A DNA stretch of 64,000 nucleotides from Tamarix chinensis (taxonomy: Eukaryota; Streptophyta; Magnoliopsida; Caryophyllales; Tamaricaceae): contig CM060180.1 in the NCBI GenBank assembly GCA_030549775.1, positions 86,131,172 to 86,195,171 of the forward strand, in the 5' to 3' direction. The translations under genes were made by a program, and so were the position numbers. The notes beneath the pieces are model-generated. The model saw nothing but the letters and a program-made list of their open reading frames with translations, ran no database searches and was not told the DNA's origin. How positions within the stretch are numbered: the stretch's first letter is position 1; each line of letters begins with the position of its first letter. Shown here piece after piece: positions 24,053 through 60,900 of this stretch.

Positions 24053-24163
24053 TAATAGTAATACTAGCAATAATAATAGCGATTATGATGTTAAAATAAA
24101 CTACTAAAGTTATGGCCCACTAGTATTAGTAAGACCAATAGTTATAAATGTTTCAAGGTTAGG

Positions 24164-24204
<41 letters not shown>

Positions 24205-24310
24205 CAATAGTAATAATAATAATGATAATAGTAATAATAATTATATTAATAATACTAATAATAATATTATTAGTGGTAATAATAATAATAATAGTAAGAA
24301 TAATATTAAT
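23940..24310. repeat. AAT microsatellites in LTR B
   Basis: Two main runs of AAT/ATA triplets (about 23940-24075 and 24168-24310), with occasional GAT and AGT units. It is the positional equivalent of 690-1140. Confidence 0.9.
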
Positions 24311-24369
24311 TATGCTACTAAAATAATTAGCACTTATATAATAAAGGTTTAGGGGTTGGGGAGTTTAGA

Positions 24370-27852: not shown

Positions 27853-27985
27853 AAACACGGTCCGTGTTTATGAAACACGGGACCCCCGTGTTTTCTTCCA
27901 ACCGTTCTGCTGACAAAGTTTTACCGACCGCCATTCGGGACTAATAACACGGTCCGTGTTATGGAAACACGGGACCCCCGTGTTT
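27853..27985. repeat. Two tandem double-hairpin units
   Basis: Each unit holds two palindromes. The first is AAACACGG-T-CCGTGTTT at 27853-27869 (a 7-bp-stem version at 27946-27960). The second is AAACACGGG-ACC-CCCGTGTTT at 27873-27893 and again at 27965-27985. The units repeat at about 93 bp. All four are perfect stems of 7-9 bp with loops of 1-3 nt. Confidence 0.9.
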
Positions 27986-28265
27986 TCTTCTCTTGCACTC
28001 AATTCCTTTGAAAGTTTGAGCTTCACTTCTCTTGATATATTTGTTCCTTTTCCAACTTTGCTCTCCTTGATTCGGCATTTCTTGATGTGTTTTCTACTTG
28101 ATTTCTTCTTCTCATTGATTTCTCCTTGAATTTCTTCAATTCTTTTCTTTCCTGTAAAACTTATTCAAAGGAGGAAAACTCGACGAAAAGATTAAATCTA
28201 GTAGAAATTATGAGGGATAAATGATATTTTTAAATACGAAAATAATCAATAAATCTCATCTATCA
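27974..28265 (+). repeat. 292-bp direct repeat, copy 1
   Basis: It matches 28821-29112 over exactly 292 bp, with two differences that I can see (a C/T near 28151 and a C/T near 28240). It begins at the loop of the hairpin at 27965-27985. After 28265 the text continues with 'aataccccc'. Confidence 0.93.
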
Positions 28266-28820: not shown

Positions 28821-29112
28821 ACCCCCGTGTTTTCTTCTCTTGCACTCAATTCCTTTGAAAGTTTGAGCTTCACTTCTCTTGATATATTTGTTCCTTTTCC
28901 AACTTTGCTCTCCTTGATTCGGCATTTCTTGATGTGTTTTCTACTTGATTTCTTCTTCTCATTGATTTCTCCTTGAATTTCTTCAATTCTTTTCTTTCTT
29001 GTAAAACTTATTCAAAGGAGGAAAACTCGACGAAAAGATTAAATCTAGTAGAAATTATGAGGGATAAATGATATTTTTAAATATGAAAATAATCAATAAA
29101 TCTCATCTATCA
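28821..29112 (+). repeat. 292-bp direct repeat, copy 2
   Basis: Second copy, 555 bp after the first ends. It starts 'acccccgtgttttc' without the left half of the hairpin that precedes copy 1, and ends 'catctatca' before 'tgagtgcac'. Near-identity points to a recent duplication. Confidence 0.93.
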
Positions 29113-29279: not shown

Positions 29280-32200
29280 AATATGGAAAAGCAGACATAC
29301 ATAGCTTGGATCTATGTTGACCGATATATTCTGGACTATCAAATCCATTACTCTACATACATAGTATCCACAATCATCACTGTTTTGCTGTTGTGGACAC
29401 TATCATATGAATTCAAGTAGCTCTCTAACTATTAGATATTAATTTGAATTAAAACAAAATACAAAATAGTTGGCTTCCTACTTACCATGACAGGCTCATA
29501 TTGAAGATTCTTTGGGTCTGGGACACCATTCTCACCTCTCCTTTGATATGCCATCTATAGTGCCCTAATAAATAGAGTTGGATACACAATATTGAAAGTA
29601 TATATACCTCAAATAATGAAAGTAGAATATATATGTATAAACAAGCTAATGAAGTAAGAAGTGAAAAGTATACTAACATGTCGATAAATTCCTTCCCACC
29701 ACGACGAGCGACTTCAAAAGGCACGTCATAGGTTCAAAGGGAATAAAAAAACATAGACTTTATTAAGATTAGGTCGGACGGCATACAAAACCCAATGTTC
29801 ATTTGCGAGGTGAGGAATGAGATAGAGCTTGTTGTATCCCTCAATCAAAATGTGATCCGCTAAATAGTTTATGTGTCTACCCTCTCTTATTGTACTACCG
29901 TCAGTTATGTAGTATGGGCACATAAACACAATAGAGGACAACATTCCCTCCATCGCAGCATAACTAACTACCAACCTATGGACGACAATAACAATGCATA
30001 TTTGTTATTAACTCATATAAGAGGTCATAAAAATTTCAATTATAGAAGAGTACTAAAATCTCAAGTATGAAATAATACTTACGTGACATAAATGGCAACA
30101 CATATGGTTGACATCCATTCCTAGTTATTAATGTCGCTTATGTCAACCATCGATATCATGTAAGTAGCATCATCCCTTTCAACATACTTAGGACGACAAT
30201 TAATAAAAATATAATTGTCCTAAGGTAGTTTTGGGCATAAAAATACAATAAAGCTAATGCTGGTGGAGGTTGGCTTATTTCTGAAGAAGAAATCTTTTGT
30301 GGGAAAACTGATTTTTCAGATTTAGCTCTATTTCCTTTAGCAACGCCCTCTTTTGTGTTGCTCGTTCTACTAGTACCTCACTTGGTTTTACTAGTAGGAG
30401 AAGCTTCTTCTTTGATTTCCTTTTTGATTCCTTAATTGATAATAATAAACAAAATATGTATTGAACATATATATATGAAAAAGGTATAAACAGTGCAACT
30501 ACTAAACAAGGTCTAATAAAGATGTCAAATGTTAATACCACTTCAGTAGTGAGACGTATTTGATCCGCAGGCCAAGGCACAAAGCTTCCATGAGCTTTTA
30601 GCATTGTGGCTGCCTCATCGCCCTCTTTATAACAAGGAAAGGGCACACTGTCAATGATTGGAGTGTCAATACTCACCAACCTTGTATTTAGGGCTAAGTT
30701 GTACCCGTGGACTGTTTGCGTTTGGGTACTGTGACTGATGCAGACCCTTCCTTTCACCAAAAGAGTTGAAAGGTCATTCTCTAACAAGTCACATTTATGC
30801 AAACCCTAAACAAAAATATTACACATTATTTATTATTTATTGCACCGAATACATTTAATAACAATTTATAGTTTGTAATACTTACCTCAGGAAGAGAAGA
30901 AAGACATGCATCAGCTTCACAACTATCTCTAATGCTATTTACATTAGGTATGTGAAACTGATCATGGTCGACTGAATTGGATGGCTTATACCCTTGAGAT
31001 TTAATAAATGACAACTCTTGCTCCATTGTTGCCATATATTCAAATTCCACGTTCAATTTCTGGGTGAGGATGGCGACTTGCTCATTAGTGCTACGAGAAC
31101 CACGAGATCGACCACATATGATCGTTATCATAACACGTAATCTAAGACCCCTATGTTTTCCAGGGTGTTCTACAATTCCTGTAGCCTAGGACACAATATT
31201 ATATTGGTCGACCCCCTTCTCACCATCTGATGCTTGAAGTTCATCCTATAATGTATATAATATTTGTTAATTTAGCTTATAGGAATAAGCATAATATAAA
31301 ATTTTTCTAAAAGAAAACTAAGTAGGGTTATAGATATCTATAAACTTATAATTTTTGTGGTTGCAACATCTACATCTTCAATAATATATCCATCTCTTGT
31401 TGTTCTAGCCTTCTTCCATAATGTACCAATATTGATGGATGAGGTACATGGGTCCAAGTCTTGGGCTACGAGCTATAAATCAAAAAATATTCTTATAATA
31501 TACCAATATTATAAAATTCGTCAATACATGTAAATAGATAAATCACAAAATGCATACCCTTTATGAACCATATTATGTTGGTATTTATTCTGCTTCACAA
31601 TCTCTTTATTTTTGGCACTTTTTTCCTATGTGGCAAGCTAAAACATAGTCACATAGTTATTTCAATATTATGCACAATATTAAGATCAATACAAAAAGTT
31701 AAATTGTTATCTAACAAATACCTTAAAATTTCCCATAAGATGATATGCAATAAATTAGTTCCAACTTTTTTTATCGATGAAACCGTATCGTTTGGGTGAA
31801 TTCTGCCGTAGAGAACCATCCCTCTTTCTGTACATTTTTCTATTAGCTAAATATGACCTAAATATTCTTAGATGCTCCCCACAATGTCTAAGAAGTCATT
31901 TCTTCCTACTATTTGGAATATTAAAAACTCTCTGCAAAATAAGACATATAAATGTATACCAATGTTAATGTATTAAAATTAATAACATTTGACATACAAA
32001 AATGATTACATAAAATATCAAATTTACCGTGATTTTCTTCCAAATATGCTCCTTATGACCCTTTGGAACCTTCTTCCAATTATTATAGGAGATAGGAACA
32101 CGGTTACAGGTCACAAGTAAAATGTAAGTCAAGAACATGTCTGCGTAAGGGCCAATGGGAAGATTGTAAGTACTCCATCCCAACTTGACCAATTCTCCTT

Positions 32201-32309
32201 TATTCCTCATATATGTGATGATTCTCATAATCTTAGGTCCTCTTTTCCCTTCTTCATCACTACTATCCCTATAAATATTTTTGTTGGTTATATCTCTACA
32301 AAAAATCAA
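29280..32309 (-). pseudogene. CACTA second gene: DUF8039 and Ulp1-like cysteine protease remnant
   Basis: Minus-strand exon remnants downstream of TNP2, where many plant CACTA elements carry a gene with a Ulp1-type (C48) peptidase. Visible parts: about 32309-32019 (plant-transposase-like, with GKRGPKIMRI); 31131-30890, ending CCTGAG before a GTAAGT donor; about 30807-30540, starting after a TTTAG acceptor, DUF8039-like (HGYNLALNTRLVSIDTP, AHGSFVPWP); 30432-30275; then the Ulp1 region, with catalytic His in HWVLYAV (29974-29726) and Cys in DDCGYYVCRVMD (about 29383-29345, Cys codon 29372-29370). The Asp expected after VYVF reads as FLFPLN, so the triad is probably incomplete. Several stops are present (for example near 30132). 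Splice signals survive better than the frame. Confidence 0.75.
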
Positions 32310-32620
32310 TAAATAAATTATGTTAGAACGTTATGTATTGAGCATAATGTACCATTATATTATCGATACAATAAATATCCTATCATAATGGTCAACAAAT
32401 GCATTTAAAAAAACCAGCACACATATCATATGTTACAATATTATTACCATCATTGCCTTCTTTTCCTTCTTTTTTTCACCTTGTTTTCGGATTAGTTTAA
32501 GGATCTGATACATATATTACTTCACGATGATCATCCCTGACATATATTTCCTCCTCATTAATTTTATTGTTATCATAGTTCAATAATTGAGTTGCTTGCA
32601 TAGCTGAGACACTCTTTATT

Positions 32621-35600
32621 CTAATTGGCATCATTTTTATCATCACATTCATTAGCATTTCTTTTCTTCATAAATAGTACCACAGACCATCTGTTATCAG
32701 TAGGATTAGTGACATAGAATACTTGTGTCACTTGTGATGCTAAGATGAATGGGTCTTGTTTATGCCTTACTCTATTAAGATCTATTAATGTGAATCCATC
32801 TTCATATCTAACCCCATAGCTATTATCAACCCATCTGCAGCCGAATACAAGGACTTTAAAGACAGTGTAATTTAACTCCCATATATGTTCAATCACACCA
32901 TAATAATTCATATCTGAATAAGTTGTATTTTTGTCTTTTGCACTAGCAACATGCATTGCCTCAGCCACTAAAGTCACCCCACTATTCTGCATTGTACTTT
33001 TCTCATCTTGTTCTTTTGTATAAAAGTGTAACCATTTATCACATAATTGGTATATTGAAAAACTTCATAACAAGGTTTCTGAGACAACCAATGTAGGGGT
33101 TTGGAAATTAAAGTTGGAGAATGTCCGATGAGTGGAATGATGAGATCTCTTATCCAATTGATAAAGGAGAGATTATATTTATCGATAATCCATTTCTCAA
33201 TCTTTGATGGATTTTCAATCCATAAAGAAATCATATGCTCTTCAATGTATGGTTGAACATCATCACTATTGTGTAATACATATAGATGTGTGCTTTACGA
33301 AACATGTCAGGGTCTACACGCCCAAACTATTTGCCCCTAATACCCTGTCCTTCAATTTTGCCTGCATGTCGAGACTTAGGAATACCAAGAGCTTCAATAT
33401 TTGACAAGTACTTTGTGCAAAACTCAATTGCCTCTTCCATAAGGTAACTCTCAATAATACATCCTTCTAGCCAATATCGATTCTTCACATAACATTTTAT
33501 CAACTTCATAAACCGTTCAAAGGGGTACATCTAATGCCCATGAATAGGTCCTAACATTTTTATCTCATAAACTAAATGAACGGTTAGATATACCATAATG
33601 TCAAAGAATGAAGGTAGAAAATACATTTCAATCTGGCCCAAAGTAATCACAATCCCTCTTTACAAAGTGTCCAAACTATCATAATGTATGACTTTAGAGC
33701 AGACGACATTAAAAAACCAACAAAGCCTCGTGATAGTAATTTGAACACATTTTGGAAAAATTCCATGTATAGCTATCGGCAACAAGTGCTGCATCAAAAT
33801 ATGACAATTATGAGACTTCATGTTAATTAATTTCAACTCTTTCATCGACACGAGCATTCTGACATTTGAAGAATAGCCTTCCAGAACCTTAACACTATAA
33901 AAGAATTCACAAAATGAAATTTTCTCTTTTTTGGAAAGAGTATGGCACGCCAGTGGTAAATATGTTCTTCTTCCGTTGTCTCGCGGTGCTAGTTCTCATC
34001 TAATACCCATTTATTCCATATCTATTCGAGAATTGATGCCATCTTTAGTCTTGCATGGAACATTAAATAATGTACAAACACGACTGTCCCATATATTTTT
34101 CTCAATATGCATCACATTAAGGGCATGTCTCACGTACAAAGATTCCCAATAAGGAAGGTGGAAGAATATTGACATCTTCTTCCACCCAACTGACCGAGGC
34201 TTATCTTTATTCTTCTTCCAAAACCTGACACTCAAATGTTTCATCTTCAGCCACACTTGTCGACCCGTCAACCGGATTAGTGCCTGCCTTTCTTCTCGGA
34301 ATCCATTGAACGCTTTTCGTTGCCTACGATAATGATAATTCTTCGATAAAAAACCTACGATGCCCATGGAACACAATCTTTCAGCCATGTGTCAGCTGAA
34401 CAAATGAAGTATTCTCCTCACATATCAGACATGCATAATGGCCTTTCACACTATAACCTAACAAGTTGCCATACACTAGAAAATCATTTATAGTACAGAA
34501 TAACATTGCTCTCAAAGTGAAATTTTTTTCACTATATGCATCAAATACTTCAACGCCCATGTCCCATAAGAACTTCAAATCATCAATCAAAGGTGCCAAA
34601 TAAATATCAATATCATTCCCAAGTTAGTTTGGCCCCGAAATGAGTAAAGACAGCATCATATACTTGTGTTTCATATAGAACCACAGAGGTAGATTGTATA
34701 TAACTAAAATCAAGTGCCATAAACTGTAGGTACCTTGATTGTGCGAATTTATTCTATCCGCAAAAAGCGCAAGGCGCACATTTCTTGCTTCTTTACCGAA
34801 TTCAGGAAACAAGCCATCAATCGTCATCCATTGTGGAGAGTCAGATGGATGTCTAAGAAGCTCGTCATCTATCTTCTCATCAACTTGGTATTATAGGAAA
34901 ATACCATAACACCTTAGCGGGCAACTTGTTCCTCTTGTATTGTGGTGCTTTGCATTCAGGATTAGGACAACTATCCAAAGATGCATTGTCATTGCGATAT
35001 AAAATACAATCATTAGGGCATGCATGTATCTTCTCATAACTCATGCCCATAGAGGATAGAATCTTCTTCGCTTCATAGGTATGATCAGGTAGAACGTTGT
35101 CATTAGGAAGCATATCCTTCACAAGTGAAAATAATTCTGTGAAACTCTTATCACTCCATCCGTTACATGCTTTTAAGTTATATAACCTTAAAGTAGTGGA
35201 TAATCGTGTAAATGTCTTACAATTACCATACAAAGGTTTCTCTGAGTCATTCAATAACTTCTTGAACATTTTTGGACAATCCCAAACACTTTCCTCAACC
35301 TTTTGAGTCATCTCCTCTAACGAATGTCCCTCATAGTTATCAAATAATGATCCACTACTATCCCTCCTAACATCATCATTATCGTATTTAGACTTTGTTT
35401 TCCCATACCATATCCAACAAGTGTAACTTATATCAATTCAATACACAAACAAATGATCTCTCAAATCATTAGCATTGACACGCTGAATATAAGCACACTT
35501 CAAACAACAACATATTATTCTACTTGAGTCCCGAGCATGTTCAACTGCAAACTTGATGAAAAACTCCACTCCTTCGCTATATTCTCTAGGTAGATGATTT

Positions 35601-38237: not shown

Positions 38238-39078
38238 AGAATACCGTCGGATGATTATTACCCTACGTAATATTATTTACATTATGGACCCAAATTATAA
38301 TGGGTATGAGTGTTCTATCGACCCTTTCCCTAATGATGGTGATGTTATAGAGCTTTTGGTAGACATGTGGAGTGAGCCTAAGGTGATGGTGAATGCAGTT
38401 TTTGTGACAGGTACCTTAGTCAAATTAGAAGATTTTTTTTGCTTATGACCGAGCAAGGTCCCAGTAATGGATACCGATTTTATTTTTAGTACATGATATC
38501 TTGCACATTTTTTATAGAGAAGTCCAAAAATTGTGCTCCATTATCGGTGTTGAGATTAATAGCTGATATGGGTACATTAGGTGATGGGCACTTGGAGACG
38601 TACATGTTATACCAAGATGATCATCAATTTTGCTACCCCAGCTCATCCTTATCCCTCTTATTATACTAGATCATGGATTTGTTGTGGTGTAAACATAGGG
38701 AAGTATAAGGCGGATTGCTCCAATCGTGCATCATTTTGGAACACATAGCCACATCATCCATTAGACTTAAGTTCCCAATTTCATATATCAACATATTAGC
38801 ATGATGCCTTAGCCACTTTCCTTGGTTCCATTCTAAAACCCATCCAATAGTTCTTTATATAGTAATAGACAAAATATCAAGTGATGCCCCCATACATTAA
38901 GACATAAGTAGAGATGAATAATGATCTGATGGGTGGGTACGACCACTAGTTTAAAGAACAAAAGAAGGGTAGAGTTGATAAAGTTAATGGTTTTGATAAG
39001 CTAAATGAGGTGTAATTCACAATGGGAAGATTTAGACTCTCTTCTAGTGAAGAGGAGAAGGACAGACAACCTCTTGCA
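38238..39078. other. Unassigned stretch between the CACTA element and the LTR composite
   Basis: About 840 bp, moderately AT-rich. A 65-codon plus-strand frame (38251-38448) has no family signature that I recognise. It may continue the sequence interrupted by the CACTA element at 20453. The left target-site copy TTGCA of the composite lies at 39074-39078. Confidence 0.4.
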
Positions 39079-39394
39079 TGTAACAACCCAAAATTCACAA
39101 CTTTTTTTTTAAGTAGAATAATTTAAAATCGAAAACCAGTTAATTCTTGAGATGTTACCGCCACGCTTAGTACCAAACCGGTTCTTTCCGACTGTTTTAG
39201 TACCAAGTGCTAAGGCTAAGAAAAGATTAATATTAAACTCAAACCAAGAGTTCATGAAAGAATTAGAAGAATCATAACACCAAAGATCAGAGTACGCATA
39301 AAGGATTGTAATTCATATTCAAAAGAGAGATAAACTTACGATCGGTAAAAGATTTATTTTAAAATACGCAATACAAGTAATGAATCATAAAAGG

Positions 39395-42300
39395 TGTAGC
39401 ACCCCGAAAATTCACTATTGAAAAAAATTCTTCTAATTAAAAGAAACTTTGTGGAAGCAATTAATAAATAGTGAACTTTGGGAGTATTACCGCCACACTT
39501 AGTACCAGATCAGTTCACTCATACCGTTCCAGTACCAAGTGCTAAGGCTAAGAGAGTAAAATATCATTTTACGAGAAACTTAAGCACTTAAAAATCAGAG
39601 AAGCACAGTAAACACTTTACAAGAGAAAAATTCAACAACGGTGGTTACGAAATAACAAATACATTGAATTTAAAAGACACAAATTAAAACCCTAAAATTT
39701 CCGGACAGTACCTTACGTTCTTCCCCGAGAGCCCACTTGAATAGCACCTGAATACAACCTACAAGGGGTACTGCCCATTGAATAGGCAGGGGCCCACGAA
39801 GGGAACCCTTCAGTACTATGGTACTGAGTAACCCTTTAAAAACGCACTTAAAATACAGGCACACAATGTTACACATGATACTACTACATTCATATATAAC
39901 CATAGGTATAAACATGATATTCGGATCCACTTATTCGCACATCCAATAATTCAATCAGATACTAATAGCGGATATGTAGCATTCACTTTCATATATTCAC
40001 TTACTTAACAAGTCAACCAATATCAATAGGCCATAATGAGTAATCGATATATTTCGAGCCTTAAGGCCGTCGGTCCATCATTAATCAATCATCTCGATTA
40101 TTAGCATTTTTCCATAACTTAGTCACATCCAAAACAAATTTTATTGAGGGTAAAAACATCCTGGGCCACCATTAAATCCGGTGGATCAATACTCATGAAC
40201 ATCATCCAGGGCAAAATATCCTGGGCCACTATTATTTCCGGTGGATCAGTACTCATCATATAAATCAACTAGCCTCGACTCGTTAATCTTTCACTTTAAC
40301 AATTAGTATTTTCCCTTTTTATTTAGCACAACAATTCCATTTATTTGCCTCGATAGGGAGATCAAGAACCCAGGACACAAAGGTACACCAGTCGCACTGG
40401 TGCATAAAAGCTACTCAGTACCCTCCAACTAGTAACCCAGGGACGCAAAGGTACCACCCCCTAACTAGGTCTGTAGAGCTAGATAGAGTAGATATAGAGC
40501 ATGGCTGGGGCACAAAGGCACACCAGCAAATACCAAATAATCGTGGGCTAAACCACGTCTTTAGGGTAGCGACCCCTAAAGAGCCACCATTCCCGATCAC
40601 GAGGTCTTTTACTTTAAGTATTAGTGTCTTAGTTAATGGTGATCACAAAAGCACAACAATTAGATAATTATCCACTTTTAATTGTTCGGATATCATTAGA
40701 CATTTCTTATTCAAATGGTTGTTTAAGGTAACATGAATGAATCATTAAGGCCATTCTGAACTCATCTAATTCCGAATTAGAACTCGTTCTCGTGATACTT
40801 ACTAATAATCAAGTATTCTTACCTCGTTAATTAGCGTTATTAGAGTCATATTACGAATTCCACATTCACAACGATATATACTAGATACAAGCTACTCATT
40901 TTCCCCTTACTTATAAAATCACTAAGTCATCCCTTCCTTATATGATAAATTACCATATTATCCTCTTCGTTAGAAAATCACCAAGTTACCCCTTATTCGA
41001 TTTAGATTACCAAGTTATTAAGCATACTTATTAGGTCATTAATCCCCCTTAATAATTATTACACTTAATATACTTTCCATTTAGTTGGTTAGATTACCAC
41101 TTTGCCCTTTTTCCTTTATTATAATTAATAAATTATCCTTGAGTTGGCCAAATTTCTAAATTACCCTTCCTTATTATCCTAATTATCAAATTACCTTTAT
41201 TTCATTAATTACCAAATTACCGTCCTCTATTATCAATTACCAACTACCCTACTCCGTTATTAAAATTACCAAATTACCCCTGGTTGGTTAAATTACTAAA
41301 TTGCTCTTTTATATGATCATAATTACCAAACTACCCTTCTCCTTCATCAAATTTACTAAATCACCCCTTAGTCATTTAGATTACCCAAATTGCCCATCGT
41401 AATTGTCATGATTACCAAACTACCCTAATCCATTATTAAAATTACCAAAATACCCTCTAGTAGATTAAATTACCAAATTACCCCTCACATTTATCATATT
41501 TACCTATTTTACCCTTCTCCATTATTAAATTATCAAATTACCCTTTAGTTATTTAAATTATTATTTTACCCTTCTCAATTATTATAATTACCAATTTACT
41601 CCTTTCCAATTTCCACTTTTACCCCTTTGATTTACCAAAATTACCGTTTTTCCCCTTTACCTTCAAATTTACCATTTTACCCCTTAACTCCCAAAAATTA
41701 CCATATCGCCCTTTTACTTATAAAATTTCCATTTATCCTTGATTATAAAATTACTATCTTACCTCTTCTAATTTCCAAATTACATTATGCCCTTTAATCA
41801 CAAAATTACTATTTTACCCTTTAATTATAAAATTACAATTTTACCCCTTTTTTATAAAATTACCAAATTGCCCTTTTATCACAAATTACCAACTTGCCCC
41901 CTTTTATTACAAAATTACCCTTTATTACAAATTACAAAATTGCCCTTTGTATTATAAATTACCAATTTGCCCCTTTTATTACAAAATTACTATTTTACCC
42001 TCCTTTACTTCCAAAATGACCCATTTACCCCTTACTTCCAAAATTACCACTTATCCTTTTACTAACAAATTTACCATTTTACCCTTACCTCCAAAATTAC
42101 CAACTTATCCTTTTAATCAAGAATCACCATTTTACTCTTAATACACCCTTATTATTAAATTATTATTAATACTACATGAAATATTAACTTTAATGCCTCA
42201 TCCATGACTATTATAATTAATATAATTCTTATTAGCACATATATATATGTATTAGGCCATACTCTTGTACAATATACATTAATAAAATCCCCTAATGCTC

Positions 42301-44126
42301 AAAAAATATTAAACATGTATTAAATATCACAATAGCATATAACAACATGGATAATAATTACCATTTTCCTTAACAACCAATTTATCACCTCAAATAATAT
42401 TTCCATACATAGCAACAATCTATCATGCTTCCTTTTCATCAATCAACACAAGGACCACATATAATATACTAAACAACATATATCAAGCATAATACACATT
42501 AAAAATGCCTAATGTACTAACATGCGTTAATCCATGCATTTAAGCGAGATTTAACAATTACCTCGGTTTTTGCAAAAATGAACCTTACTGGTATTCCGGT
42601 TAAAGGTCCAAGCTTTGATTATAAAAACCAATACCTAAAAATAATATAAAGATTTATTACATTAGAAATAATAAAATCAAGTCATAAAACATTATAATGC
42701 TTAATTAATCAAATAATTAAATTAAAATAGTATTATACCTCAAAATTTTTACTCAAATAATTTAACAAGGGCGGGCAGCATGAGCTGCATGCAAGAAAAG
42801 TTGGAAGGGGGGCTCGAAGGTGGTAAAGGGGGGAGAAATGGGTATTTTCGGGTTGGTAGTTTGGGGCTAAGAAAGGAGGGGGTTAGGGGAGGATTTAGGG
42901 CAAGGGGATGGTATAGAGGTGGAGATGGGGTGTAAGTGGTGGTCGGGGATGCGTCGGAGGTGGCTAAAGGTGGCGGAAGTGGCGAGAAAGAGGCCGCGAA
43001 GAGGGGCTGCCGGGAAAGGGTCGAGATGCAGGCTGGCAAGGAAGCAAAATGGGGAGGAAAATGGAGGCTTTCAAGTGATGGTTTAGACCAAAGGAGGATT
43101 GGAAATTGTAGAGGGGGTTGCAGGGAGTAATAAGGTGGCTCAGGTGGCGGCAGAATCGGCGGGACGGCGGCAGAAGCGGTGGAGATTGGCGGCGAAACAA
43201 AACAGGGGAGAGAGGGGAGGAGAAGAAAGGAAAGAAGAGAGGATCAGGGGAAGGAATTTTGGGCTCGAAAAATGCCCGAATGGATCAGGAAAGGATGAAG
43301 AAAAAGGATGAGGAGAGAGAGGAGGGGATAGGGGCTCAGGGATGGCGTTAGGGTGGTAGGGGAATGGAGGTTGCAGGGAGAGGGGGAGAAAGGTGACAGT
43401 AGGGAGAGGGAGAGGGTGACAGGGTGGTGGGACCAGAAAATGACGCGAGGGAGAGACAAGGGAGTTAACGAGGGAGAGGGAGCTGCAGGTTGGGCGGCAA
43501 AAATGGTGGAGGGTGGCCGGGATTATCGTCGGTGATGGAGGAAGAAGAACGAAAGAAGAAGAAGAAGAAGAAAGGGTCGAGGGTGCTGCTGGGCGTGTGA
43601 GACGGGCGCACCGGCCAAAGGAAAGAAGCCCGGTCGAGGAAGAAAGAAAGGAAAAGGAGGAGGCGGCCGGGCTCACACACAAGAGAAGGCAGGGGGAACT
43701 GGGCCTGCAGCCCAGCGCGCATGGGGGGGAGAAAGGGTAGGTCGGCCAACCGGTGGCCCAAGGGAGGAAAAAGGAAAAAAGGGAAAAAGGGAAAAGAAAA
43801 AAATGGTTTTTAATTAAAATAATTTAATTTATAAATAATAAAGTAAAATATTTTTGGGTAATAAATTTACTTAATAATTTAATTTAATACAATTAAAATA
43901 TAAGGGTTTAAAAAGATAATTTAGTAAAATAATGGTTTGGGAGATTATTAAATAAAAGGGACATGATAAAATAATAAATATTTATTTTAATTTATTAAAT
44001 ATTTATATCCACATTTATATACTCAAAAATACACAAAATAATTAAATTAAAAGATTTAAAGGCTAATTTATCCAAAATAAAATTTATTTATTAAAACATA
44101 AGCTTTTAAAATTTTGGGAGATTACA
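39395..44126 (-). mobile_element. Solo LTR, family A, 4732 bp, TSD AAAGG
   Basis: It starts TGTAGCACCCC at 39395, ends GGGAGATTACA at 44126, and has perfect 5-bp duplications AAAGG (39390-39394 and 44127-44131). It has the same order of parts as 8193-13352: the conserved end, hairpin motifs (only two, degenerate, 40167-40240), a TTACC-type array (40915-42130), and a GC-rich purine-rich block (42770-43800). It interrupts the left arm of the composite, whose sequence continues directly at 44132. Confidence 0.92.
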
Positions 44127-44552
44127 AAAGGGGTAAATCCGATGTAAAGGAAATAGTAGAAGGAGGTAAAATAATAAGAAGAGGGAATCCGGCTACACTA
44201 TTCTCGAACTCAAAGCCAAAAATGTTCAACACACAACTCCGCTTGATGTGTCACCCACCTGTACAAAGTCAAAAGGGCCTACTACTCGTGGGAATGAGCA
44301 ACGCTCATAAAAGGGTGATCAGTACGCTACGTACTGAGCAAGGTAATCGTGCACTAAGGCCAACACATAACATCACATAAATAATGCAAAAGAAATAAAA
44401 TAGCATAATCCATCATGATAACATAATAACGTATAATCATTTGGGTAGATACATAAAGGCCCATTTATAGTCTAGATTAATTATTTAATTAATCTCTTAT
44501 TAGAACTCATTTCACACCATGCTTTTTATCAAATCCATATGAGTATGGGAAC

Positions 44553-44840
44553 CCCACTATTATAGCCGGTGGACCGGAAACACACAGGGCATAAAGCTCC
44601 TGACCACTATTATTCATTGTGGACCGGTTCGGCCCCTTCTTGCATGATGTTCTATTGTAAGTACTTAGTATCTTTCCCATGTATTGGCACAAATATGTTC
44701 AATTTTGTTAAGCATGGAATCCCCCACTATCATAGTCGGTGGACCGGAAATGCACATATACGAATCCTGACCACTATTATTACCGGTGGAACGGTTACAC
44801 ATAGGACATCATGCTCTAACCACTATTATTCGTCGATGGA
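44553..44840. repeat. Five hairpin motifs in the composite's left arm
   Basis: Five copies of the CCACTATTAT..CCGGTGGACCGG type near 44553, 44601, 44725, 44772 and 44819, several mutated (for example CATTGTGGACCGG). The same array appears inverted at 48968-49610. Confidence 0.8.
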
Positions 44841-46489
44841 CTGATCTAGGCTCGACTCAACAATCTTCCACTTTAAATGATTACTGTCTTAAGTGTATTA
44901 TTTGGAAATTTTCACCCTAAACATGCATGAATCACTACCTTACACTTTATCTTCCAACTGATCTGTATCATATCATAAGAACCCTGCACCTTCTAACTTG
45001 TCCAACAACCTTTCCTCTGTACTCAAAATCACACCAGAACTCCAACACCAAAATATATGGGTCAAGGCCCACTACTACACACCTTCAAGTCCACTCCACA
45101 TCTCACTTTAGGGTTCACCCCGAAACCCTAAGTTTAACTTTTGTGGTTCATCCCACTCCATTTCACACGACCCAAATCATTTTAACATTCCACACATCAC
45201 AACTCATAAATTTCACCCTCATAATTACACTTTAATCACCAAATATACATGACACCACAAAACCCTAAGCAGCTACACCAAACCCTAATTGTCTACACAA
45301 ACCCTAGCTCAGTCTCCTACGTACCATTATATTACTCAACGTACTATTTTTCATCCAAAGTGTTCAAACACCCAAACTACACTTACATTACCTTCCTCAC
45401 ACCCCAAATCAACTTTTCATACCTAAACTTCATGCCCATGCAAACGTTACACATCCCATGCAACCATTCGAATTTTTTATGCAAACCCTAAGCTCCCACG
45501 TGAAGCCCTAGATTCAACCATGCAAACCCTAGATCTATCCATATAAAACCCAAGATTCCGTCATACAAAATCCTAAATTCAATCCACACAAAACCCAAGG
45601 TTTCTCCATACAAAACCCTAAATTTAATCCATACAAACCATAGATTAGAATCTCTTATGTTACACCATAGATTAGATTATCCCATGTTACACCATAGATT
45701 AAATTCTCCCATATAAAACCATATATTATATTCTCCCATATAAAACCATAAATTATATTCTCCCATATGAAACCATAGATTATATTCTCCTATATAAAAC
45801 CATAAATTAGATTCTCCCATATAAGACCATAAATTAGATTCTCCCATATAAAACTATAGAAATTCTCCCACACAAAACCCTAAATTTCCCATTTTATTGC
45901 TCCACTCATAGATCATTAAAATACTTAGGTCAACTCACATCCCTTGGTCAACTTATTTCCCCATTCTCATTTTTCATCCTTTCCCCCATACAAACCATAT
46001 TAACATCCTCACATGCATGTCTTACAGGGTCACGACACATATCATCACATACCACAATATATCATCACATACGCATAGAACACATGCCATATAATGATAC
46101 AGAAACATACTTCAACTCCACGCCATACCACACATGAAATAAATATAATGATAAACATAGGATGCATAACATACAAAGCATATAATACACATCAACACAC
46201 AATAAGCCTTAGTAACACCCTTATCTAAAATGACACCGGCCTTGGAGCACACTCCTACGTCTCCTTATGACTTTAACTAATCTCACCTATATGAGGAAAA
46301 ACTAGAATTAGATTCCCTCCTATCAAAAATACTATTAATTATTATCTTATTCTAAGACTAGGCTTTTGATAAAATAATAAAATATTAATAATAATAACCA
46401 TTAACAAATTACTAAATTTGGCTAAAAATATCGGATATAATAGTAATAGCATAAAAGTTGATAATATAAGGTTGAAGATTTTATCCTAA

Positions 46490-46951
46490 TAATAATAATA
46501 ATGATACTAAAATAATAATAGTAAAGATACTAAAAATAATAACAATGATAGTATTAATAAGAATAATAATAATAATAGTGATACCAAAATAATAATAGTG
46601 ATAATATTAAAATAATAATAATAACGATAAAAATAATACTAAAAATACTAATAATGATCATAATAATAATAAGGATAATTATACTAATAATAATCGCATA
46701 ACAATAATAGTAATAATAGCAACACTAATAGTAAAATAGATGTAATAATAATAATGGAATAATAATAATCATTTTAAAATAGTAATAGTAATAATAATAA
46801 TAATAACAATAATAATAATAATAATAATAATAATATCATATTAATATTAATAGTAAAGATAATAGCAAAAATAAGAATAATAATAATAAAATCGAAATAA
46901 ATAAAAAAATATAATAGGGCTTCGACCCTCAATAGAAATAATAATAAAATC

Positions 46952-46988
<37 letters not shown>

Positions 46989-46990
46989 TA
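46490..46990. repeat. AAT microsatellite in the composite's left arm
   Basis: About 500 bp of AAT-type triplets with interruptions; the equivalent of 690-1140 and 23940-24310. The Ile-rich frame on the complement is an artefact. Confidence 0.85.
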
Positions 46991-47049
46991 TTTTGAATAA
47001 ATGAAATAAAATAAAATAAAGCTTGTAAAAATATGAAAAAAGGGTTGAG

Positions 47050-48270
47050 AGGGTCTAGGGTTCAACCTTAGGCTGGTGGTGACAGGCGGCACCGGCGATG
47101 GTGCACGGCGACTATGGTGATGACCGGAAAAAAAGAAGAAAAAGGGAAAAGTTGAATGCTAGGAAAATGAGAGGCAGAATGGAGGTGGGAGTTGGGGTGT
47201 TTAGGGTTGCCTAGGTGGAGAGGAATAGAATAAGGGTGATGGCACAACCAAAGGTGGTGGCGCACGGCAGCGACGATGGTGGCCAAATAAGGAAGAAGGA
47301 GAGAAAGAGAGGAGGAGAGGGAGGAAGAGGAAAAGGAGAGTAGGGGGACATATGGGAGGGTCTGTAGATGTTTTTGGGTGGTGTAGGAGGCAACGACAGT
47401 GGTGGAAGTGGTGGTGAATGGTAGCGCAAAGGGTGGCAGAGGCGGAGAATAAGTTGATTGGGAAAGGGACTTTGCACGGCCTAGGTGGCTCATGCAGGAA
47501 GAATCGAGGGATGAGGGAGGTTTAGGTAGTTAGAGGGCGGTGCAAGGATGAGTTTGGTAGGCAGATATAGCGACGAAGTTAGCCGGAGGCAGTGGAAATG
47601 ACATCTAAAGGAGTGGTGGCAGCAAAGTCGGAAAATTATGGGTAAGCAACCAAAACTCAATACATGGCTCAACCTGGGGGTATTTATAGGGTTTAAATGA
47701 GAGTGTGAGGTATGTGGGACGACGAGGGAATAGAGAAAGTAGGGTTAGGGTTCACCGGCGGTGTCATGTGGCTAGCAAAAATCCAGGTCGTGGTAGGGAA
47801 GGTGATAAGCTGGGATGAGGGGAAACATGCGAGAATAGGGGAGATTTGGTTGGGTGAAAAGGTCGACGGGTTAGCAGGGAAGAGGGAGAAGCGAAACTGT
47901 CGGTCAACGATGTGATCGGTGGTCGTGCAGGTCGTCAACGGGAAGGAGGAAGAAGGAAGAAGGGCGTGAACCGACGATTTGGGGAATAAAAGGAAGAAAG
48001 AAAAGAAGAGGGAGACCGGCTAGGAGACGGGCTAAATTTTTTAAATTAAATGATGCGTTTTAGGGGAAAAAGAAGCAAGGTGTCGTGCGGCGAGGGAGGA
48101 GGAAGGAAAAGGGGAACAGCTGCACAGGCTGGGCTAGCCGAAGGAAAGGAAAATAAGGATTGAGCTGTGGGAGGGCAGGCCCAATCGGGGGGAAAAAGAA
48201 GAGGAAAAGAAAAGGAGAAATGAAGAAAAGAAGAAAAAAGGAAAGAAAAAGGAAAAAGGGGAAAAGAAAA
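47050..48270 (-). promoter_or_regulatory. GC-rich block with a TATA box, composite's left arm
   Basis: A purine-rich, GC-rich block like those in the other LTRs. The complement has CCTATAAATACCCCC near 47680-47695, followed by a pyrimidine-rich leader, so minus-strand transcription would be expected. Minus-strand frames of 81-141 codons here are low-complexity. Confidence 0.5.
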
Positions 48271-48735
48271 ATAGTGGGTTGGGTTAATTAAATTAATTAG
48301 GATATTTGGGATATTTAAAAATAATAATATTTAAATAAAATAATATTTAAATCCCTTTTTAGGCTAATTTAGGATTTTTAAAAGGTTTTTCATAAATTCC
48401 ATTTTTAGTTAGCAAATTACTCTAATTTACTTCAATCAAATTATTTATAAAATTACTATTAATTTGGAACTATTTTATCCTCCTTATTTTAAATAAAATA
48501 ATTTATTTAATTAATTTCTAAAATAAAATCCTTAATTAGCTAAAATACCCAAATTTCTCTTAATTAAAATACTTATAATTTTTTTGATTTGCCCTAATTA
48601 ATTTCCTTTTATTTTAATAAAAATAATTAATTTAATTAATTTTTCTAATAAAATCTTATTTAACTATAATTTTTTAAATTAGAATTTTTGGGGCATTTTA
48701 TTACCTAGAATAAGGAAATAAGTGGACTTAGAGAT

Positions 48736-50347
48736 GTGTAGTAGTGGGCCTTGACCCACATATTTTGGTGTTGGAGTTTTGGTGTGAGCTTGAGTATAGA
48801 GGAAAGGTTGTTGGAAAAGTTAGAAGGTGTAGGGTCCTCATGATATGATAGGGGTCAGTTGGAGGATAAGTGTAAAATGAGTGATTCATGCATGTCTAGG
48901 GTGAAAGTTTCTGAATAAGACACCGTAATACATTAATCATTTAAAGTGGAAGATTATTGAGCCAGGCCTAGACTGGTCCACCAGTGAATAATAGTGGTTA
49001 GGGTATGATTTCCTATGTGTAGGGCTGTAAATGAGCTGAGCTAGTTCGGTATTCGGCTCTGCTCGGCTCGTTAAAAGCTCGGTTCGGCTCGTTCGTTTAG
49101 TTAAACGAGCCTAAAAGTGAGGCTCGGTTCATTTTTTGGCTTTGGCTCGTGAGCTCAGTTTGGCTCGGCTCGTTAAAAGCTCGGTTCGGCTCGTTCATTT
49201 AGTTAAACGAGCTGAGCCCAAACATCATTTTAGGCTCGTTTAGTTAAATGGGCCGAACCCAAGTCTAGGGGTATTCGGCTCAACTCGACTCGTTTATAGC
49301 CCTACCTATGTGTAACCAGTCCACCGGTAATAATAGTGTTCAGTCTTTGTACCTATGCGTTTCTAGTCCACCAGCTATAATAGTGGGGGATTCCGTGCTC
49401 AACAAAATCGAACATATTTGTGCCAAGACATGGAAAAGATACTAATTACTTACAGTGGAACACTGTGTGAGAAGGGGCCAGACCGGTCCACCGGCTGATA
49501 ATAGTAGTCAGGAGCTTTATGCCCTGTGTGTTTCCAATCTACCAGCTATAATAGTGGTCAGGAGCTTTAAGCCCTGTGTGTTTTCGATCCACCGGCTATA
49601 ATAGTGGGGTTTCCGTACTCGTATGGACTTGATAAAAGGCATGGTGTGAAAATAATTCGATAAAGGATTAATTAAGTAACTAATCTGGACTATATTGGAT
49701 CTTGGTGTATTCACCTAAACGTTCATATGCCTTTATGTTATTATGTTGGATTATGCTCTTTTTATTATCCTACATGGTTTATGTGAATTTTTATGTGTTG
49801 GCCTTAGTGCACGGTTACCTTACTCAGTATATAGCGTACTGATCACCCTTTTCATGGGTGCTGCTCATTCACACGAGTAGTAGGTCCTTCTGACTTTGTG
49901 TAGGTGGGCGAGACATCAGGGGGACTAAGTGTTGAGCTTGTGGTTGGCTGAATGTTTGAGAGTGTCGTGGTCATTTTCACTCTTCTCGTTATCTTATTTC
50001 CCTTATGTTATATCTTCTTGTATCGGATTTATCCTTTTTGATTTATTACTTAGTATTGAATATTTGAGATGAACTCTTTAACCATTGTACGATTATTTCT
50101 CTTTTTGGACATGAATTATAATTCTGTTATGCGTACTCTAATTTCTATGTTATGATCCTTTAATGCATTTTATGAACTCTCGGTTTAAGTGTGAAAATAA
50201 TCTTTTTAGCCTTAGCAATTGGTATTGGAACGGTCGGAGTGAACTGGTTTGGTACTAAGTGTGGCGGTAACATCCCCATAATTTACAGGTTTTTAAATTT
50301 TAAATTATCCCGCTTTAAAAAAAATTAGTGAATTTTAGGGTGTTACA
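48736..50347 (+). repeat. Inverted right arm of the composite
   Basis: Its reverse complement aligns with 39079-39394 joined to 44132-45095, including 'accgccacacttagtacca', the hairpin array and 'gggtcaaggcccactactac'. Without the MITE (49020-49304 plus its 8-bp duplication) it is about 1.3 kb, as in the left arm. Homology stops near 48736, equivalent to about 45095. By eye the arms differ at roughly one base in five to seven near the tip. Confidence 0.85.
49020..49304. mobile_element. hAT-like MITE, 285 bp, TSD CCTATGTG
   Basis: It starts TAGGGCTGTAAATGAGC and ends with the complement, CGTTTATAGCCCTA, giving inverted ends of about 20 bp with a few mismatches. The 8-bp duplications CCTATGTG (49012-49019 and 49305-49312) are the length made by hAT transposases. 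The inside repeats 'ggctcggctcgttaaaagctc'-like units with no coding region. The element is missing from the corresponding place in the left arm (near 44800), so it inserted after the arms formed. Confidence 0.92.
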
Positions 50348-50352
50348 TTGCA

Positions 50353-54968: not shown

Positions 54969-57900
54969 ATGGCAGAGGAGGCTGGACCTGCACTGAGTCC
55001 TCCCGCACCGTTAGATCACCACAAGCGGAAGCACGACGAATTGGAATCAGAGGAAGCGCCTGAATCAACACCGGCTACTGAGGAGCCTGCTGGTGATCTG
55101 AGCTTGGAACCGGACGGCGTGAGGAAGGACGTAGATTTTACTGAGGATCAAGTTTCTGATTCTTTCGATGCTAAGCGACCTCGTTTGGATGAAAAACCTG
55201 ACGGCTTGGGTACTTTTCTCACACTTTATTTGTCGCTGTTCTCCCTTGATTTAGGCTTTTGAGCTTCCAGATATAGGATTTATGTTCTTCGTCCGTGATT
55301 CTTATTTACTTCATGTTGTTAATTTACTGTAGTTTGTTAGGAGTGTCATTCGATTAGGTTATGAGCGAACCCTTTTTATTCATTTTGTGTTTGGCATGAT
55401 GCGGTGATCTCTTTTCTGGTCTTTTGCAGCCAATGAGAATGGACATGAAGTGGCTGAAAAGGAGAATGCCGAGCTTCCTGAGAAAAATGCTGAAGCGAAT
55501 GAAGATCATGAGAATCAAATGGCTGTTGTGGAACAACCTCCCGGTGAAGAATCGGTGCGCGACAATTATACTAATGATGAAATGCATGTTCCCGGGAACG
55601 TGCATGAAAGACCCGCTGCTGCTGACGATTCAAAGATGGAGGATGAGCAACCTCCATCCTGCACTGACAATGACCAGTCGGATAATGCTTTGAACCCTGT
55701 TCAGGATGAGGGTCTTAAGTCTGATGTCCCTCAACAGAGAGACGATTCTGCAGAGCAATATCTTGATTCTGGGAGTCAAACCATGTCCCGGAAAATAGAA
55801 GTTCCTAATAACAAGGTTGTTTTTTAGAGCTAACTTCAAGCTGTTGCTGTCGACCTTTATTTCTCCTGAATGCAATTTGGATTTTTTGCGTTTGGATTTT
55901 TGGTCGAAGGGAAAGGTAGGATCTGATAATCGGGAGCATGTGAGTTTCCCGCTGGCCGGTACTAGTTCTTTACCAACTTTGGTGACAAAATGCCGTGGAC
56001 TTTTGTTCACAGTTATCAATTATAATCTTAAAAAAGATAAAATAAAATAATGTGCTTCATATAAACTTTGGTAGTGAAACAAGGAATTAATGTTTCACCT
56101 AGTCATTTCATCTGACATGTCCCACCACAGGTTATCATTCAATATGAAGATTACCAGGCTCCTGTGTTGGCTATGGAGTCTTGCCTGTTCGAAGCCCTGG
56201 GGGTTGAGATCTCCATTAATAAGCTGGTGATGCTGCTGATAGATTTAATCTTAAAACATAGACTTTGGTTTAATTCAAGTGTTGCATAGCTGCACTTTTA
56301 TCAAAGGAGGGGTACATATACAGGAGAGTATCTCAAGGAAGGAATAAAAATCATTCTTGAGGAGTAAAAATTTTCAGGACTAACCATCCCTGTCCGCTTT
56401 TTCACCTAATGCCGACATTTTTTATATTTTCATTTCCCATACATTCTTTGACATTTTTCTCACCTATGTCGGACTTCTGCAATAGTGAGTACCAACACTT
56501 GTCAAAATCCCAGCATAAGAGACCTGAAACATAGTTCTGCCTGATGCTTGTCAGTTCTACCAAATCCTAGCACAAGACCCCTAAAACATAGTTCTGACTG
56601 ATGCATGTTTGATCTATTTAAGTCCAATCAAGGGTATGTTCCACCCAAATGTGGGGTAATGCACACAGAATATTTCGGGGATGAAAAACTTGGTTTGAAA
56701 CTCCATTACAAGTTTATGAATTCTGGTTACAACCTTCAAAACTCTATCACAGCCTCTTTACTGTAGCACTAGCCAGTGGCTACAAGCTTCCTGCTAGAGC
56801 CTTTTCTTGCCTAAAAGGGTCATAACCCATTAGAATGATGTGTTAGATTGCTTTAGGTAGTTTTTATTCGTTCAGAGGAGCACTGAACTAGAGAAGAGCG
56901 GCAAGAGTGATAATGTGGCAGCTGAGGCAAGTTAAGTGCTCAGCAAATGAGGAGTTCTGTTTTCTATCCTAGCGATTCTCCTGCCTCAAACTTGGGATCA
57001 TTCAAGCCCAACCCACTTAATTAGTATCCATGTCTCACTTTTAATCATTAATATTTGTGTATAAACTGATTGTTATTACGGTGAGTTAGGATATAATTGT
57101 TATTTAATAGGTATTTAAATTCTAGTACAATTAATAATTTAATACATATATGTTATATGTTTTTACGTCTCCTGATATCCTCATTTTCTAGTGCTTTGAG
57201 GATTGCCGATTCCCTGCTTCATGCATTCATTATTTTTGTTTGTGTCCCCTTTTCCTGCAAATTGAGTTTTCTTTGAACTTAACAAAAATGATTGAAGTAC
57301 ATGGCAATGCCTAATTATTTTTCTTAAGTATAGGTTCAGTTCAATACAGCTAGCTTTTGGAGTACAATACACAATTGCAATCTATTTTAAGTTACTCTTT
57401 GATTAATGGCATTGAAATGTCGACTACATTTTGATTGCTTATAATCATTTTACAGGTTGGGGTTCTTATTGGCAAGGCTGGAGATACAATAAGACTTCTG
57501 CAATCCAATTCTGGTGCCAAAATTCAGATAACAAGGGATGCTGATGCTGATCCACGATCCTCTACTCGGCCAGTGGAACTTGTGGGAACCCTTGAAAGTA
57601 TAAACAAGGCAGAAAGTCTGATACGTGATGTTATAGCGGAGGTTTGGTTTGGGCATCTGAATGTGAATATTAAGACTACTTTTACTGGAAATCCCTTTAT
57701 ATATGGAACTTCAGAATTTGTTCTTTTTATTTTTTTTCCACATTAATGCTGTTCATTTATGAGCCTCAGCTTGCATAACCTATCTTTCACTTGTTTAATA
57801 GGCTGATGCAGGAGGCTCACCTTCGCTTGTGGCCAGGGGATTCACTACAGTAGTGCCCGTTGGAGATGCAGAACAGATTGAGCTACAAGTACCTAATGAG

Positions 57901-60900
57901 AAGGTGATGTTTGTATCAATGAGTTTGATGAGATGGCTAAATAATGTTATTTTTCTTTGTAATGTTTTATATGATAATGTTATTTTCAGAGGTTGAATTT
58001 TGTTGCCTCAGGTTGGTATGATAATAGGAAAAGGTGGGGAAACCATAAAAAGTCTGCAGACAAGATCTGGCGCTCGTATCCAGGTACTTGGTATATGTTG
58101 CAAACTTCATCGATGTGTTTGGTTGAAAGTTAAGGAGTCTAGAGGCTCATAGACAGTATTATCTTTGCCTCCAAATGTAGTTGGTTCCACAACATCTTCC
58201 TGAAGGTGACCGATCTAAAGAAAGAACAGTGCGAGTGAGTGGTGATAAAAAGCAGATTGAGACGGCTAGGGAGCTCATAAAAGAAGTTATGAGCCAGGTA
58301 CTCAAAATCTCCTGTGTTTGCAAATTCTTTTTAATGTACATGTATATTGTATTGCAACTAGAATTGCAATGACTGTTAGATATTATGCTTTTGATCCTGA
58401 ACTCTGCCAATTGTTTGTGTGGTCTGGCATCTCGGAGGGGTGGTTTGGCTGTCTTAAGCTGATTGTGCAAACTGTGGTGAAGTATTTGACAAGATTCTAC
58501 AGTTTTTAAGCATTGATATTAGGCTGATGTTTGCGGTCCTTGCAATTTGACCATGTGATCTGACATCATGGAGGGGTGTTTTCTGTCTTATGAAAAGTGT
58601 GGAAATGTTGTGATGTTTTTGGGAAGATTTTACAGTTCTTAAATATGGATAGGGCTGATTGTGGGATATTTTCATTGCAGTCATTCCCTAGGAGCACAAG
58701 CACCCTGTGAAATACGGTTATTTTCTTTTGTGATCAGTTTGACATGAATTTGGATTAATTAAAGCATGTCCCTGAAGCATGAAAACCTACCTTTGCCTAA
58801 CTATACTGTCTGAAATTATGTATACTGAATACTGGCAAAGGCTCATTTTTTATATTTAGTCACTGCATGATATCATGATCTTGCAAGTCCGTATCTTTTG
58901 CCATGCGCATCTGCCAAATTGATTTTACATGAAAGCTGTAGGCTTGTTGGCGGCTTACTGACAAAAATAATATTTATATGCTTTTTTATGTGCAGAGGTT
59001 GGTCTAGATGATGCATGTTATTCAGTGTTAAATCATGCGGTTGGGTTCCGTTTTCTGGCTGGTGCCTTTCTGACAACATAATTTTGCTGGAACACAGTTT
59101 GTAATTAGATGTACTTAGGTTGCCTTAACTCACGGCGTAAACAATTTATTAGCAATTGTTCCTTTCCAGAAATATATGCTACTAATCCCTGATAGAACCA
59201 TGCTTTATGCCTGAGGTTTTCTGGGGTGATTCTTGGTATCCAACTGCTCAGAGAATCTAATCATGAATGGAGGGGCTGCATATGCATGATACAGGTAGCA
59301 TGAATCATGTGCCTAAGTGGCTCCATATGTATCTTGAGGGAAATTTCATGGTGATGCTATGGGGAGCGTCTGTAGAGAAGCTTTTGAGAGTTAAATAATA
59401 CATGATCATTTGCTGAGGACCTGAGGTCCATTGATGTTGTTAGGGGTCTTATATTCAATCCTGGATATGGGTTGCGATATTTTTTTAATGTTGAAAGTGC
59501 CAATTCCGAACTGGTTGGCTTCAAAAATGCAGATTCGGCTAATGCCTTTCACATGCGGTCAGCTTTGCCTTCTTGGTGTTACCACTATTCACCCTCATCC
59601 ACTGAAGAGAGGTATCAGGCATTCATTGCAGGATGAAAATAGTTGGTAAGATGCTTTGAGACTTGAAAGCTGAAAACAATCATATTAGAAGCAGCATGAT
59701 TCATTTCATGAACCTCCACGTGGTGTCCACATATTCCTTATTTCTCGTGTACTTACTATATTAAGCAAGTAGTCATGATGGACCCATATGCTTCTTATGG
59801 TTCAGTGTCAGTTCATATTAATACTAAGTTTTAGGTATGTTATTGGTGCTCTAGTTTTTTTGTTTACACCTCCGTAGTCTGGAGTATGCTTCTCTTGTAT
59901 TTATCTGTTAGTAATTGTCTGCATATCTTGATACTGTTGTGCATCATGCAATGAACGAAAGATGAAATGTCAGATTTGAGTGTGGCTTCCTCTTGAACCA
60001 TTAATGCAATGCCATGATGCCCCTCTTCTTCATCTTCTGGTATTTGCTTATTCATCATTATTTGCAGTTGTAGTGTGGAGAAAAAAGGTTTGTAAAGAGC
60101 CTTATCTGAGGATTAGTTCTTGAGCATTGATTTTTCTTTAGTTTTTTAATAAATGCGAGTTGCATATCACATGGCATAAGCTATTCTAGCATGTTTGAGG
60201 TATTTTCTGAATCTAAGCATTGAAACCCTTTAGGAGTAAAACTGAGGTTTTGCACTTGTGTAATAGTTTCCATTATGCATTTTTCACGACTTTTTCTGAG
60301 GGGCCAGAATGGAATGTTATTGATATATGAAAGCAAGGGAACAGCTTCTGAAGGTTACATCTAGCCTCCTCCTATCATGGATATTCATTACTTGGAGTGT
60401 TAATGCCATCCAACAGGGCTTCTTTTGATTTAGAGTGTCTGTATGCGGCTTATGCCACTGGATAATGCTTCTGAAAATGAATTGAATGGTCACTCATAAG
60501 TTCTTGATTTTCCAAGTTAGCTGATGTGTCATGTCTGGCGGTACTTGTGGTTGATTGCTAATGTTATTGGCGGACTTTTCAAAGTATGTGTGCATAACTG
60601 TGTTTATTATTGCTGGAAACAATGTACAAGTTGTGGTACTAGGATACAGTGATTACTGACTGCAAGTTTGTGTTTAATAGACAATCTATGATGTGATTGA
60701 TGCTTTTTGCTTATATTTGTCTGATCCTTGCTTGATCTATTCCCTTCCGGACACACATACACACATATATTTCTTCTTCTTATATATACTCCGTATCACA
60801 TGTATTTTGAGCTTAGCTGCAATGTTGTAGACTAATAGTTATGTAATCTGGCTGGTTTGTTGCAGTAAGTTTGACTTCTAACCATCTCTTTTTGTAATTT

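Follow-up and report, generated by a model that had tools for sequence, protein, structure and literature searches.

Composites of long terminal repeat (LTR) retrotransposons have been described in grasses, where 400 LTR insertions in about 7 Mb included 20 recombinant complexes as well as 2 with a target site duplication (TSD) that were assigned to template switching (PMC1950507, Table 1). Autointegration is another route to unusual arrangements and, in the part of PMC4751563 that names its products, yields inverted 2-LTR circles or truncated circles. Our literature search, conducted by titles and abstract openings, brought up no recognisable report of an integrated LTR unit whose two ends are alike. 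Here we analyze such a unit, located at positions 39079-50347 of a 64,000-nucleotide stretch of Tamarix chinensis DNA (C10:86131172-86195171 of the 1.32-Gb genome, contig CM060180.1), which as a whole is called the window below. With a probability that we put at about 0.52, the unit arose when one LTR, termed A, entered an older solo LTR, termed B, and a later deletion took the other part of B exactly to the end of A.

Results and Discussion

Two like LTR ends within a perfect target site duplication

The unit starts with TGTAACAACCC from 39079 and runs out in ...GGGTGTTACA up to 50347. The two borders are the same LTR terminus, each facing outward, and the pentanucleotide TTGCA directly touches both of them as a perfect 5-bp TSD, with the left copy at 39074-39078 and the right copy at 50348-50352. 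From the base composition, the probability of TTGCA at one given position is about 0.001. A preliminary description of this DNA had already reported the like ends, the duplication exactly at both borders and a chance of about 1 in 1000 for such a 5-bp match, all of which was borne out, and we agree with it that a simple inversion is no explanation. The arms are collinear, and their inverted similarity far exceeds the length of a terminal motif, amounting to 80.6% identity over 1268 aligned columns after exclusion of a nested LTR and a 283-bp insert. An ordinary solo LTR has one start and one end beside its TSD; the window unit shows one terminus twice. The same terminus at both borders, together with a TSD, was found in the window unit and in one further unit, L031, which is described below.

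The left side of the unit consists of one complete LTR, A, of 4885 bp in two pieces on the minus strand. The first 316 bp from the outer end, which is the end on the side of the primer binding site (PBS) or unique 5' (U5) end, occupy 39079-39394, and the remainder extends over 44132-48700 to the far terminus GGGGCATTTTA. A is split by a solo LTR from a different subfamily, nested at 39395-44126 (minus strand, 4732 bp), which has its own TSD AAAGG at 39390-39394 and 44127-44131 and its nearest relative in the window in the copy at 8193-13352. The right side is a fragment of LTR B on the plus strand (48701-50347), inverted relative to A, which comprises only the final ~1.3 kb from the insertion site to the PBS-side end. 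The second terminus of A ends at 48700 and the B sequence starts right there, without filler; the first five bases of B, TTACC (48701-48705), presumably represent the right TSD copy expected for A at the A/B junction. B in turn carries a 283-bp insert resembling a DNA transposon (49022-49304) with a 10-bp TSD at 49012-49021 and 49305-49314. This insert shows terminal inverted similarity (GGGCT-TAAA) and contains many GCTCGGCTCG-type repeats. Thus, the arms are diverged and unequal, as had been stated previously, with the correction that the left one is a complete LTR containing a nested LTR and the right one a fragment of ~1.3 kb with an insert.

Twelve complete A-type LTRs of 4.9-5.5 kb are present elsewhere in the genome. 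Three of them (L014, L025 and L016; 5.0-5.3 kb) have termini of matching kinds, and the nine further copies measure 4.9-5.5 kb. Since L014, L025 and L016 are complete and have a like far end, a chimeric origin of A from two LTR types was excluded.

The orientation of the termini was taken from a complete relative, the C1-type element (loci L047, L053 and L054; C11:80353000-80368390), which lies nested inside an L-type LTR with the TSD CTAGG. Its LTRs of 4691 and 4690 bp are separated by ~1.76 kb. The motif TGGTATCAGAGC, which we take to be the PBS, begins three bases past ...GGGGTGTTACA, and a purine-rich tract resembling a polypurine tract (PPT), AAGGGGGTAGTGA, precedes the other LTR. The gag frame of 342 amino acids matches Pfam PF03732 (E 1.7e-18) and PF19259 (8.2e-14) and is of Ty3 type. 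PBS, gag and PPT between two LTRs were found in this one C1-type element only; the L-type subfamily, which includes A and B, was encountered solely as solo LTRs, with no copy possessing an internal region. The position of the PBS in the C1-type element identifies the TGTAACACCC end as the U5 (PBS-side) end in reverse reading, and the orientation was carried over to the L-type LTRs because the termini are shared. Judged by this relative, both outer ends of the unit would be U5 ends, and the unique 3' (U3) end of A would adjoin B, with A on the minus and B on the plus strand.

The two arms belong to different lineages

Relatives of the arms were collected by single-arm searches, in which 40 of 7,822 and 40 of 14,256 candidates were scored and the best 10 and 20 loci were kept. 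The 28 genome copies in the resulting tree thus represent the best matches rather than a random selection. Among the 30 arms of this tree, a fork comprising 21 rows (support 99/98) includes the left arm and excludes the right one. Forcing the arms together as sisters makes the tree 119.7 log-likelihood units worse (approximately unbiased (AU) test, p 2.4e-34), and the positions of both arms were unaltered after a copy from C5 had been added. When the five copies of the window were compared alone, the arms appeared as the closest pair, sister-like, with 52 and 50 polarised changes; this appearance was overturned by the addition of the genome copies. Thus, the arms of A and B stem from different lineages of the LTR family. 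Among the copies kept, the closest to the left arm is L014 (87%) and the closest to the right arm L002 (88%). Measured by the refuting condition named in the preliminary description, arms in clearly different subfamilies older than the insertion, this outcome goes against its interpretation.

The inner junction lies at a recurrent insertion site

With a query spanning the A/B junction, 40 of 4,646 candidates were scored. Besides the window, two of these loci match over all or nearly all of the query, one on C5 and one on C1, and both are ordinary nests in a B-type host LTR that continues beyond the guest. The guest is a 5401-bp LTR with the TSD ACCCT on C5 (L032:520-5920) and a 3921-bp LTR with the TSD AACCT on C1 (L033:2083-6003). 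Over their last 500 bp the two guests are 61% alike, and either is 62-68% alike to A; at only 61-68% similarity, the two guests and A represent independent insertions. A composite family sharing the A/B junction was dropped as a candidate, as the C5 and C1 loci are separate ordinary nests. The third nest, within about 3 bp of the site, is the complete gag-only element with the TSD CTAGG (L047/L054), which was met among 12 loci fetched by arm similarity alone and not for the junction. The site at LTR position ~1300, corresponding to 48701 in the window, has therefore received at least 3 other elements of the family, all of which have TSDs of their own. Because the junction served to select the C5 and C1 nests, neither an insertion rate nor an orientation bias can be derived from them.

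In 40 family loci the site was uninterrupted in 34 (38 pattern matches minus 4 chance or reverse ones), filled in one (L047) and unmatched by the pattern in five. The empty site resembles CTCTAGGGTTTTTCCCAAAAACCCTA, a short palindrome. Twelve of the 40 scored junction matches run about 26 bases past the junction, and at least one of them (L014) lies in an uninterrupted LTR; the site sequence itself therefore resembles the far end of the LTR. When A is taken alone, its flanks TTGCA and TTACC match in 3 of 5 bases, and its guest terminus sits in the host at the recurrent site.

Like-ended units elsewhere in the genome

Nineteen LTRs of the genome were followed for at least 5 kb. An ordinary far end with a TSD was found for 12 of them (7 perfect, 5 with one mismatch); one more (L048) has an ordinary far end and flanks that agree in only 3 of 5 bases, and six (L002, L003, L012, L013, L047 and L049) were left undecided by nesting or range. 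None of the 19 was like-ended with a TSD, only an exact flank repeat having been sought for L012. Two computer flags were discarded, that of L013 not being an LTR end and that of L014 being a duplicate of its ordinary end. Nesting is common, at least 4 of the 19 LTRs carrying or running into another LTR of the family. An internally shortened, inverted family LTR of 1541 bp with the TSD GTTAG was observed nested in another LTR at L049:4393-5933.

The search of the genome for other head-to-head units with a TSD, proposed in the preliminary description, did bring up one: in the single-arm search with 40 scored of 7,822, 1 of the 39 other candidates, L031, has a nearby like-ended partner. The lists of second matches overlap in part, carry no stated reach, and do not show the window's own partner 11 kb away. 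L031 (L031:3956-4588; G000:C10:26954955-26955587) is a second unit with two U5 ends, 633 bp long and flanked by the perfect TSD CATAA. About 92-96 bp of the PBS-side end, with C replacing the first T, are followed by an inverted 545 bp, and the inner join is made without an LTR far terminus. Its arms are 86.3% alike across their short overlap, and the left arm is nearer to numerous other copies (up to 93.7%); a comparison over 96 bases is too short to decide between one molecule and two. No other locus among the 40 scored, L031 included, matches across its junction. None of the other scored loci spanning that junction, L031 as an amplified unit was rejected. All 36 second matches at loci other than L031 coincide with the LTR end of the respective locus itself, which is what a palindromic query should give. 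A search with the first 601 bases of the 8193-13352 copy (40 scored of 5,580) gave a sole second match, which is not like-ended.

Origin of the unit

In the explanation that we favor, B in plus orientation would have been an ordinary solo LTR with TTGCA on either side. Integrase would then have placed A, or an element later reduced to A, into B in the opposite orientation, at the preferred site ~1.3 kb from the PBS-side end of B. Finally, the remaining ~3.6 kb of B, as far as its TSD, would have been deleted together with the left TSD copy of A, which would have joined TTGCA to the outer terminus of A. The LTR ends of the family are imperfect inverted repeats, which would turn into direct repeats in such a nest, and the deletion probably occurred by annealing of the short imperfect direct repeat TGnAAnACCCCaAAA from the outer termini of B and A. 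The second solo LTR entered A, and the small element B, at times not fixed relative to the deletion. That integrase put A into B is suggested by the exact terminus of A adjoining B at a known insertion site. The anatomy of the unit, the separate ancestry of its arms and the ordinary nests at the equivalent site elsewhere were directly demonstrated; the first and third steps at this locus and the nest-like birth of the A/B junction we infer.

Several observations weigh against this explanation. Its weak step is the deletion, whose two breakpoints have to coincide exactly with the termini. When three complete copies from the genome stood in for the missing part of B, the two terminal sequences agreed in 10-12 of 15 positions, a match equalled or surpassed by 2,940 to 73,100 of 18-19.5 million pairs, other stand-ins agreeing; with thousands of pairs equally good, homology alone fails to predict the deletion. 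A high terminal match (15 of 17) was obtained only with the end of another subfamily, that of the 8193-13352 copy. The left TSD copy of A is absent by hypothesis, which makes the nest unprovable at this locus, and the outer end of A, being TGT..C and not TGA..T, retains nothing of the usual far terminus. The terminal branches of the arms (0.096 and 0.077) give no insertion order, so that B being older than A is not shown. Furthermore, as the site sequence resembles an LTR far end, A and B might have been joined through similarity instead of insertion, and for L031, the other like-ended unit with a TSD, the explanation would call for two deletions.

The rival explanations differ in how they account for the like ends and for the inner junction. 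The preliminary description had proposed the insertion of a linear DNA with two like ends, for instance an inverted product of aberrant reverse transcription or of self-integration. We considered this as a single molecule arising through self-priming or intramolecular self-integration. The like ends and the exact TSD agree with this proposal, as did the close pairing of the arms among the five window copies. The single-molecule part of it is not supported, because the arms lie in different lineages once the genome copies are included and sisterhood is rejected at face value by the AU test. In addition, a complete LTR terminus lies within the unit, and we regard a single molecule as exceedingly improbable; self-primed strong-stop DNA and intramolecular self-integration were ruled out as candidates by the separate arm ancestry. 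Two unrelated insertions with a chance TTGCA match are hardly more credible: the 3 of 5 bases matching around A alone would fit, but this account needs the 1 in 1000 TSD match as well as A landing exactly at the broken edge of B, and the self-comparison of the window revealed no continuation of B to the left of A. Rather unlikely, too, is template-switch repair, in which a break near the end of a normal LTR would have been followed by copying of an inverted PBS-side end, primed through the terminal inverted repeat, with the TSD kept. Such repair would draw on the similar LTR termini and would explain L031 in one event; it leaves unexplained why the copied stretch in the window stops exactly at the terminus of A, at an insertion site.

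A possible, though in our opinion doubtful, origin is a composite formed before or during integration, in which two different complementary DNAs (cDNAs) were joined to give a DNA with two U5 ends, which was inserted at TTGCA. Either the LTR of a B cDNA served integrase as target for the U3 end of A, at the preferred site, or one integrase complex used the U5 ends of two cDNAs, whose free tails were then joined; A would afterwards have been reduced to a solo LTR, so that solo formation is required as well. We know of no demonstration of such a route. A composite predicts the exact outer termini, the exact TSD and the exact inner terminus of A without extra coincidence, and permits arms of different lineages. 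The only other hint of it in the genome is L031, like-ended and TSD-flanked with an inner join that lacks a far terminus. TSD-flanked plant LTR complexes ascribed to template switching during reverse transcription have been published for same-orientation cases (PMC1950507). On the other hand, the inner junction falls on a site that has taken up chromosomal insertions at three other loci, no second composite of the window type was present among the 40 scored junction matches, and none of the 19 followed LTRs was like-ended with a TSD. It is thus only tentatively that one may consider plant LTR integrase able to insert DNA with two U5 ends from two joined cDNAs, with the window unit and L031 as its fossils; if so, TSD-flanked head-to-head composites would make up a minor, yet countable, fraction of LTR insertions.

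If the nest with a subsequent deletion is the correct explanation, these two mundane processes can mimic a single insertion with an exact TSD, which is a trap when LTR elements are annotated or dated by their TSDs. If the origin is not mundane, the unit would provide chromosomal evidence that DNA with two like ends can integrate. In either case, the genome permits a direct count of like-ended units with and without TSD and of nests at the preferred site.

Other features of the window

The window contains several solo LTRs of one large family, whose LTRs carry TG...CA ends and 5-bp TSDs, as seen in three solo LTRs of the window with perfect TSDs. Among them are those at 8193-13352 (TSD TGTAC, perfect) and 21515-25889 (TSD CTCAT, perfect). 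The 39 other scored relatives of the first 601 bases of the 8193-13352 copy are 95-97% identical, which suggests that the expansion of its subfamily is more recent than that of the L-type copies. When a chance frame in an LTR was used for a protein search, no match was obtained.

Two direct copies of 292 bp (27974-28265 and 28821-29112) are 99.3% identical and lack TG...CA ends. A run of broken frames on the minus strand (29485-35437) has the look of what we take to be a CACTA-type transposase; two frames of this run were tested against Pfam and gave no match. On the plus strand, frames at 55408-62168 have the appearance of KH-domain gene exons. One of them, at 60912-62165, is similar to far-upstream-element-binding proteins of plants, with best named relatives including Chenopodium, Bienertia and Gossypium (53-56%), and taken alone it had no Pfam match.

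Comparison with known systems

The window unit shares with the nested solo LTRs of plants the insertion of one LTR into another, the 5-bp TSDs, the membership in a single family and the three ordinary nests at the site. It differs from them in that one side of the host is gone and the TSD of the host touches the terminus of the guest. Among non-autonomous elements, the gag-only TR-GAG elements and the large retrotransposon derivatives (LARDs), as we understand their definitions, come closest to the C1-type element, whose 4.7-kb LTRs accompany a PBS, a gag frame of Ty3 type and a tract resembling a PPT; members of the L-type subfamily, among them A and B, have been seen as solo LTRs only.

Autointegration resembles the case described here in that element DNA enters itself, possibly inverted, and the products named for it in the relevant part of PMC4751563 are circles. 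The complexes of Sabot and Schulman 2007 (PMC1950507) are likewise composites of two family members within one TSD, but they share a third LTR and one orientation and have highly similar outer LTRs. Template switching implies outer LTRs that were nearly identical at insertion, and the arms of the window unit are not sisters (AU p 2.4e-34). In contrast to those complexes, the window unit combines an inverted orientation with arms of different lineages.

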